37,752 nt of DNA from Kiloniellaceae bacterium (GTDB lineage Bacteria; Pseudomonadota; Alphaproteobacteria; Kiloniellales; J153), in contig JAJFGI010000269.1 in assembly GCA_021776215.1 (NCBI GenBank), positions 1-37,752 of the forward strand, given 5' to 3'. Position 1 is the stretch's first letter. Every line of letters begins with the position of its first letter. The translations under genes were made by a program, and so were the position numbers. Shown here piece by piece: positions 35,349 to 37,383 of this stretch. Below the pieces are notes generated by a model that searched no databases, was not told the origin of the DNA, and was given only the letters and a program-made list of their open reading frames with translations.

Positions 35349-36731
35349 CTAGCGCATGCCGCCAAAGCCGCCGCCGCCGCCGGGCGGCAGCATGCCGGCC
35401 AAGCCGCCGCGGCGCAGGCCCTTCTTGCCCATCTTGGTCATGCGTTTCATCATCCGGCCGGCTTCCTGGTGCTGCTTCAGGAGCTTGTTGAGATCCTGCA
35501 CCGTGGAGCCGGAGCCGCCGGCGATGCGCTGCTTGCGGCTGGCCTTGATCAACTCCGGCCGCCGCCGCTCCAAGGGCGTCATGGACGAGAGCATGGCCAG
35601 CTGCCGCTTGATCATGCGGTCGTCCACCTTGGCGTTCTTCAACTGAGCCTGCTGCGCCTTGGACATGCCGGGGAGCAGGTTGAGCATGTCGGACAGGCCG
35701 CCCATCTTCTGCACCTGGCGCAACTGCTGCGCCAGATCGTCCAGGTCGAACTTGCCCTTGCTCATCTTGCGGGCAAGCTTTTCCGCGTCTTCCTGCTCGA
35801 TGGTCTCGGCGGCCTTTTCGACCAGGGAGACCACGTCGCCCATGCCGAGGATGCGCGAGGCGATGCGGTCGGGATGGAAATCCTCCACCGCCTCCAGCTT
35901 CTCGCCGACGCCGAGCAGCTTGATCGGGCAGCCGGTGACCGCCCGCATGGACAGGGCCGCGCCGCCGCGCGCGTCGCCGTCGACGCGGGTGAGCACGATG
36001 CCGGTCAGGCCGACCTTCTCGTGAAAGCCGCGGGCCACCGCTACCGCGTCCTGGCCGGTCATGGCATCGGCCACCAGCAGGGTTTCGTGCGGCTTGACCG
36101 CATGGCGCACCGCCGCCGCCTCGGCCATCTTCTCGTCGTCGATGGCCAGGCGCCCGGCGGTATCGAGCAGCACCACATCGAAGCCTTCCAGGGCGCCGGT
36201 CTGCATGGCCCGCTTGGCGATCGCCCGCGGCGGCTCGCCGGGGACGATGTCCAGGGTGCGCACCCCCGCCTGCTCGCCGAGGACGCGCAGCTGCTCCTGC
36301 GCCGCCGGCCGGCGCACGTCGAGCGAGGCCATGAGTACTTTTTTCTTCTGCCGGGTCGACAGGCGCAGGCCGATCTTGGCGCAGCTCGTCGTCTTGCCCG
36401 AGCCCTGCAGGCCGACCAGCATGACAGCGACCGGCGGTGGCGCCTCCACATCGATCGGCACAGCCTCGGCACCGAGCATCTCGACCAGGCGGTCATGGAC
36501 GATCTTGATGACCATCTGACCCGGGGTGACCGAGCGCAGGACCTTTTCGCCCACCGCCTCGCCGCGCACGGCCTCGACGAAATCCTTGACCACGGGCAGG
36601 GCGACATCGGCCTCGAGCAGGGCCACGCGCACTTCGCGCAGGGCGGCATCCACATCCGCCTCGCTCAAGGCGCCGCGCCGGGTTAGCTTGCCCAGAACCT
36701 CGCCGAGCCGTTCCTGCAGACTATCGAACAT
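35349..36731 (-). CDS. ffh: Signal recognition particle protein
   Basis: The protein is 460 residues. The N domain (1-90) precedes the G domain with GLQGSGKTT (107-115), [11 protein letters not shown] (138-148), DTAGR (190-194), and [15 protein letters not shown], a Thr-Arg variant of the TKxD guanine motif that is usual in alphaproteobacteria. The Met-rich M domain ([46 protein letters not shown]) binds 4.5S RNA and signal sequences, ending in a Gly/Met tail. It targets nascent inner-membrane proteins. It is first in the ffh-rpsP-rimM-trmD-rplS unit. Confidence 0.98.
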
Positions 36732-36774
36732 GGCCTAAGTCTCTGATTTCGCCTTATTACAAAACATAATGTGC

Positions 36775-36860
36775 GCCGGTGCGCGACACTCGCGGACCGG
36801 CGGAGCTCCCCTCACTTCGGGGTTGGGGAGCCTGGGCAACACCCATGCAGAAGGTTGCCC
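36775..36860 (-). promoter_or_regulatory. Structured ffh leader with three consecutive hairpins
   Basis: In transcript order: hairpin 1 pairs 36854-36860 with 36834-36840 (GGGCAAC/GTTGCCC, 7 bp, 13-base loop). Hairpin 2 pairs 36825-36831 with 36805-36811 (GCTCCCC/GGGGAGC, 7 bp, 13-base loop). Hairpin 3 pairs 36796-36801 with 36775-36780 (GCCGGT/ACCGGC), then after one mismatch CGCGA with TCGCG around a 3-base loop. All arms are perfect. They begin at about the predicted transcript start and end 44 bases before the ffh ATG. No T-tract follows. I cannot match it to a known riboswitch or to 4.5S RNA. Confidence 0.55.
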
Positions 36861-36862
36861 GG

Positions 36863-36891
36863 AAAATAGGGCCGCCGGGCCGGCGGGTCAA
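36863..36891 (-). promoter_or_regulatory. Promoter of the ffh-rpsP-rimM-trmD-rplS unit
   Basis: On the minus strand TTGACC (36886-36891) and TATTTT (36863-36868) are exactly 17 bp apart. The -35 matches five consensus positions and the -10 four. The GC-rich spacer is typical of this genome. A start near 36856-36858 gives a leader of about 125 bases before ffh. Confidence 0.6.
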
Positions 36892-36957: not shown

Positions 36958-37383
36958 TCAGCCCCGCTTCAACCCCAATGCGCGCAGTTTGGCGTCGTTG
37001 ATCTCGCCGAACATCTGGGCATCGTTGCCCATGGCCTCCATCAGCCACTGCTTGAGCGTCGCCGGCAGACTTTCACCCCCGCGGTATGAGCCGATCTCGT
37101 AGGCATCCATGATTTCCCGCACCTGGTCGAGCAGATGGTAATGGGTGTCCCGCCGCCCCGCGAGGCCCGGGTAGTTCTGGTCCCGCATGATCTTTTCCTC
37201 GAGGGCGAAGTGGGCGCTGGCCAGAGCATGCAGATCGGCGAGGATCGCGGCGATCTTGTGCGGCTCCGCCGCCGTCCGCATCAACTCATGAATTTCGTTG
37301 AGCATCTCCACGAGGCGGCGATGTTCGTAGTCGATTCCGCCGATTCCCGTGTCGAAGGCTGGGTTCCATTCGAGATAGGGCAT
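36958..37383 (-). CDS. Hemerythrin-fold protein with incomplete iron ligands
   Basis: The protein is 141 residues, aligning with bacteriohemerythrins throughout (LEWNPAFDTGIGGIDYEHRRL at the start, WLMEAMGNDAQMF near the end). Against the seven canonical di-iron ligands, four are kept: His21, His58, Glu62 and His81. Three are changed: the expected His is Arg77, the expected C-terminal His is Ala117, and the Asp five residues later is Ala122 (an Asp lies one position earlier). An extra His is at 83. Oxygen binding by the usual di-iron centre is therefore doubtful. The ATG follows GGGGA. Ligand alignment was made by hand from memory of the family. Confidence 0.85.
   Translation of the reverse strand: MPYLEWNPAFDTGIGGIDYEHRRLVEMLNEIHELMRTAAEPHKIAAILADLHALASAHFALEEKIMRDQNYPGLAGRRDTHYHLLDQVREIMDAYEIGSYRGGESLPATLKQWLMEAMGNDAQMFGEINDAKLRALGLKRG

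Follow-up and report, generated by a model that had tools for sequence, protein, structure and literature searches.

A probable diverged ffh motif in the leader of the ffh-rpsP-rimM-trmD-rplS operon of a Kiloniellaceae bacterium, with a possible role in transcription elongation

The leader of the ffh-rpsP-rimM-trmD-rplS operon was analyzed in a 37,752-nt stretch of DNA from a Kiloniellaceae bacterium (contig JAJFGI010000269.1, referred to as the window). Judged by comparison with related sequences, the leader RNA is almost certainly a diverged representative of the ffh motif of Alphaproteobacteria (Rfam RF01793). The conserved unit, of which the alignments leave us nearly certain, comprises a hairpin (P1), a joint of 1 nt, a second hairpin (P2) that contains a C·C mismatch, a spacer of 9–10 nt and the sequence UU(U)G, with a conserved promoter upstream. 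Taken as a whole, these features might be explained best by an ffh-motif leader RNA that acts in cis during transcription elongation, an explanation to which we give an even chance.

Position and promoter of the leader

The whole feature lies on the minus strand, upstream of ffh (35349–36731), which heads the operon. ffh loci were gathered from named genomes (80) and from the order to which the window belongs (30), and the comparison covered about 150 relatives overall; many leaders come from related genomes, and the counts given below are thus not counts of independent events. The TTGACC-17-TATTTT promoter proposed in the initial annotation is present at 36891–36863 and is conserved among relatives. 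It consists of a −35 box (TTGACC, 36886–36891), which is kept in the family alignment, and, after a spacer of 17 nt, a −10 box (TATTTT, 36863–36868; family form TAT(G/T)TT), and nothing else in the scanned 600 bases matched a sigma-70-like promoter. From the promoter geometry, transcription is predicted to start at 36856, ∼7 nt past the −10 box. TTGAC was found 5′ of P2 in 97 of 100 leaders (vs 12 on the reverse strand), and the spacer measured 17 nt in 80 of the 90 leaders with a promoter match. P2 starts a median of 55 nt past the −10 box, and in the conserved unit about 50 nt separate the promoter from P2. Between P2 and the start codon the distance is free, ranging from 26 to 201 nt among relatives. 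With the promoter tied to the element and the start-codon distance free, the element is anchored to the 5′ end of the transcript and not to the ribosome-binding site.

Repeat-like insertions of roughly 60–150 nt, including inverted repeats such as CTTCGACAGGCTC...GAGCCTGTCGAAG, lie between P2 and the ffh start in four genomes (L086, L088, L007 and L010), in which the element is intact. A long, near-self-complementary run of tandem CACAGAGG-type repeats occurs at L084:1263–1435; it matched a plant microRNA family below the cut-off of that family, by chance. In four other genomes (L180, L181, L193 and L194) ∼2 kb separates ffh from rpsP, and the element is found only at ffh. The S16 gene is located downstream at every locus with enough DNA. 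In the window, an open reading frame of 141 amino acids (36958–37383, same strand) lies upstream of ffh; judged by its H...E...H motifs, it may be a protein of the bacteriohemerythrin type.

Structure of the element

The 126-nt leader had a minimum free energy of −50.2 kcal mol−1 (z = −2.9), and 2 of 200 dinucleotide shuffles folded equally well. The initial annotation had described three consecutive hairpins with perfect arms and proposed them as a structured cis-regulatory RNA in front of ffh. All three inverted repeats are indeed present, and hairpins 1 and 2 have equal stems and loops (7 bp and 13 nt) in the 7-bp reading, as annotated; the arms of hairpin 3 are imperfect and contain a C·C mismatch. 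The proposal of a structured cis-element is strongly supported for hairpins 2 and 3, which show compensatory changes among relatives and class-wide matches, but not for hairpin 1.

Hairpin 1 (36834–36860), an inverted repeat of GGGCAAC and GTTGCCC around a 13-nt loop, was rejected as a part of the RNA element. Two of its 7 pairs are broken in the sister genome (L141) without compensation, and the family lacks it. The predicted transcription start near 36856 falls inside its 5′ arm, so that the hairpin cannot form fully in the transcript, and it is missing from the minimum free energy fold of a leader that starts at 36857.

P2 (hairpin 3, 36774–36802) consists of 7 bp, the C·C mismatch between 36795 and 36781, a further 5 bp and a loop of GUG. 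Of 102 distinct leaders, 100 carry this hairpin ahead of ffh. Among 73 distinct sequences, double-sided changes were seen at 9 of the 12 pairs and 98.2% of the cells were paired; no shuffle or slid register came near this pairing. The mismatch is the most conserved feature of P2: it was C·C in 70 of these sequences and U·C in the other 3, and C·C in 29 of 29 canonical RF01793 loci. The pair above the mismatch was C-G in 56 sequences, A·C in 10, G-U in 3, G-C in 2 and U-A in 2. Going by these alignments, the 2×2 loop of the Rfam model is better read as a single C·C mismatch below one pair, which is A·C in Rhizobiales-type members. The length of the P2 loop differs among relatives by single nucleotides.

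P1 (hairpin 2) varies in length and was for this reason missed by column alignments. The window carries a lengthened form (36804–36832; 8 pairs, GGCUCCCC/GGGGAGCU, with a flanking G·U and a 13-nt loop), in which the 7-bp core is GCTCCCC/GGGGAGC; the sister genome has a 5-bp form. A single nucleotide (36803) joins P1 to P2, and a 1-nt gap is the favored register among the leaders. In a test at a fixed register, with a 5-bp stem around a 4-nt loop placed 1 nt ahead of P2, full pairing was seen in 36 leaders vs 0–13 at other registers. With the sister genome added, the number was 37 of 99, vs 7.2±2.1 (maximum 16 in 5000) when the 5′ arms were permuted between species; counting distinct arms only, 22 were fully paired vs 3.5±1.7. 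The class searches supplied another 56 leaders, a few of them (L114, for instance) from loci already present in the first set. A stem of at least 5 bp adjoined P2 in 34 of the 56 (9.7 expected), and in 22 this stem measured at least 6 bp (4.2 expected). These leaders were not used for the two-hairpin model (R2), and pair counts on sequences chosen for P1 pairing were excluded as evidence for P1. R2, which was built without the window, scored the window at 59.6 bits. Canonical RF01793 loci carry P1 as CGGUC...GAUCG, of up to 11 bp, and the Rfam model holds just its 3′ arm, marked as unpaired. By this comparative evidence, P1 is a genuine part of the element.

Relation to RF01793 and distribution

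The original description of the ffh motif (Meyer et al. 2009, PMC2704228) gives it one bulged hairpin in which two cytosines are conserved, and reports that Rhodospirillales lack it. A search of the window against Rfam at gathering thresholds gave no match, whereas RF01793 (‘ffh’) was found at the same place in many relatives. When the 91 bases around the window hairpin were compared with RF01793 (cmscan), the score was 19.6 bits over model positions 1–52, against a cut-off of 35. The sister scored 29.6, and two genomes of the same family, L083 (36.8) and L084 (39.3), pass the 35-bit cut-off. As the scores are graded within one family at one locus, homology to RF01793 is not in doubt; with its score under the gathering threshold, the window is filed as a diverged homologue and not as a member by cut-off. 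The element is accordingly not an unknown one but is to be placed with RF01793. The window also has the traits of RF01793, namely a single bulged hairpin with covariation in the stem, cytosines in the bulge and a position in the ffh leader.

The covariance model built here (R1) scored the window at 57.1 bits and matched 54 of 58 relatives, with all strong matches directly before ffh. Within the class, R1 found 240 of 387 genomes; with the E-value kept equal, RF01793 found 91. In a sample of the phylum, all 118 R1 matches fell within the class of the window, the Alphaproteobacteria, and the genome from which the window comes has one strong copy. The element is thereby extended to Rhodospirillales-type lineages, and the current Rfam model finds less than half of the genomes found by the rebuilt one. 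In Mesorhizobium huakuii, an RF01793 match has been listed in a plasmid intergenic region, IGR_Pb-19 (PMC5596092); as a possible copy away from ffh, it would be informative on function in trans.

Spacing of the U-rich tail

Downstream of P2 the window contains a UUUUG element (36760–36764), with the U|G step at nt 13/14 after the hairpin; the tail is 1 nt longer than the norm among relatives. Among 147 distinct tails, U was present at nt 10 and nt 11 past P2 in 93%, and U-G with the U at nt 11–12 was found in 134, over a variable spacer (control registers, 15–53). A fixed distance between P2 and UU(U)G over a varying spacer implies that something measures this distance.

According to a recent review (PMC12288461; also PMC9291695), RNA polymerase pauses are prolonged by a duplex located 11–12 nt from the 3′ end of the RNA, or 10–13 nt in a set covering a whole genome, and the pause consensus is G−10 Y−1 G+1. 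The tail matches the distance of class I pauses (10–13 nt from duplex to RNA 3′ end), a match purely of geometry. It also agrees with Y−1 G+1, and a conserved G is present at −10 or −11, depending on class; this G keeps its register with the stem, so that G−10 of the consensus is unsupported.

Proposed mechanism and alternatives

The literature searched yielded no function for RF01793 since 2009 and no mechanism of an ffh leader. We propose, tentatively and at somewhat less than even confidence, a hairpin-stabilized pause in the leader, possibly with a bound regulator. The leader would act in cis while the polymerase elongates: P2 would stabilize a pause of RNA polymerase near UU(U)G, and the pause would give P1 and P2 time to bind a regulator, probably via the C·C mismatch; the simplest guess for this regulator is a product of the operon. 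Alternatively, the pause could be used to keep the polymerase in step with translation. In either case, the output of the SRP/ribosomal operon would be set before ffh is transcribed. An elongation-level device would account for the promoter-proximal place, the free start-codon distance and the fixed spacing, all of which the comparison shows, as it does the structure, its covariation, the promoter and the distribution; pausing, the regulator and an effect on expression are what we infer from them. A pause by itself leaves the invariant C·C mismatch unexplained. This mismatch suggests a bound partner besides, and products of the operon are the natural choice for that role. Rather unlikely, in our estimate, is the further-reaching reading of a class-wide alphaproteobacterial elongation checkpoint, in which the C·C hairpin would both bind a specific regulator and stabilize the pause at UU(U)G, and would thus tie the supply of SRP protein to the ribosome assembly genes; if true, such a pause element in a leader would be very widespread.

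The main rival to a pause, though compatible with it, is a simple repressor site to which a protein binds. Ffh, S16, RimM, TrmD or L19 could bind the C·C mismatch of P2 together with the single-stranded UUUG and repress translation or trigger decay of its own mRNA, without pausing. Autoregulation by Ffh, S16 or L19 had been raised in the initial annotation, and we consider it possible, at odds distinctly below even. An invariant mismatch with a fixed single-stranded element resembles a protein site, the element occurs as a single copy at ffh, the constant presence of the S16 gene downstream fits such control, and ribosomal-protein leaders are common, with one for rpsP/rimM known elsewhere (PMC7247131). 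The free start-codon distance argues against this reading, and in particular against simple masking of the ribosome-binding site; in addition, rpsP can sit ∼2 kb downstream, and the leader has no likeness to the SRP RNA of its own genome. Mimicry of SRP RNA was accordingly rejected: the two share at most a 7-nt word, located in P1, and the leader is unlike the Ffh-binding part. Pairing between the leader and its own SRP RNA was not found beyond chance. A stabilizer or processing site at the 5′ end, setting the mRNA half-life without a regulator, would agree with strong hairpins near the 5′ end and a free distance to the start codon; it has no need of an invariant C·C mismatch or of a fixed spacing from hairpin to UUG, and we hold it to be very unlikely.

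P2 and its tail could also form an attenuator or terminator. The short RNA freed in this way would be the ‘ffh sRNA’ of Rfam and might work in trans. Reports place the motif among small RNAs in Bartonella (PMC7717549) and in metatranscriptomes (PMC2704228), and the stem is GC-rich, with W-rich nt 3–5 behind it. The element is, however, always in front of ffh, and a run of at least 5 U's within 12 nt was found in just 10 of 100 leaders (at least 4 in 37), on which account an intrinsic terminator was rejected. The conserved U's at nt 10–12 are too distant from the stem for a usual terminator. We regard release of a short RNA as improbable. Chance inverted repeats in GC-rich DNA describe hairpin 1 well, which is unconserved even in the sister genome; for P1 and P2 this origin is refuted by covariation, class-wide conservation at ffh and the fixed spacing of P1, P2 and tail, and as an account of the leader it has practically no probability.

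Two further candidates were rejected. A long-range helix between the tail and the 5′ end, closing a three-way junction, is striking in a few genomes; it gave an own pairing of 14.8 vs 14.05±0.31 when permuted, and none in the window, and relatedness alone could produce such a result. A leader reading frame of 29 codons (36757–36846, minus strand; MGVAQAPQPRSEGSSAGPRVSRTGAHYVL) spans both hairpins in the window, and the sister genome has a matching frame of 25 codons (MSVAQALESSAGPRVSRTGAKCVWR). An ATG followed by a frame that stays open across P2 was present in just 35 of 100 leaders, spread over all three frames, and the single-nucleotide variation of the P2 loop likewise disfavors a conserved leader peptide.

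Comparison with known systems

The proposed pause would resemble class I pause sites such as hisL (PMC12288461, PMC9291695), in which a hairpin stands 11–12 nt before a U|G step in an operon leader. The present leader differs in that its likeness is known from geometry, G−10 is unsupported, and the C·C mismatch and P1 are without counterpart there. The S16 leader of Flavobacteria (PMC7247131) is likewise structured and precedes an operon that includes rpsP and rimM; it belongs to another phylum and is located directly at rpsP and not at ffh, the comparison being one of operon content.

The closest likeness is to RF01793 itself, with which the window shares the place next to ffh, a hairpin made of 7 bp, an internal mismatch, 4–5 bp and a short loop, and the conserved cytosines. 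It differs in that the inner A·C of the published model is C-G in the window, which leaves one C·C mismatch; in that the model ends 8 nt past the stem and contains neither the P1 hairpin nor the fixed UU(U)G; and in that the lineage of the window had been reported to be without the motif. As far as the literature searched shows, what is new is a form of the Rhodospirillales/Kiloniellales type that has a single C·C mismatch, the covariation of P1, the constant distance of UU(U)G, and how many genomes the current Rfam model overlooks. What is to be explained now is a single C·C mismatch, an adjoining covarying hairpin and UU(U)G at a fixed distance, each of which may bear on how these bacteria balance SRP protein with the ribosome assembly genes.
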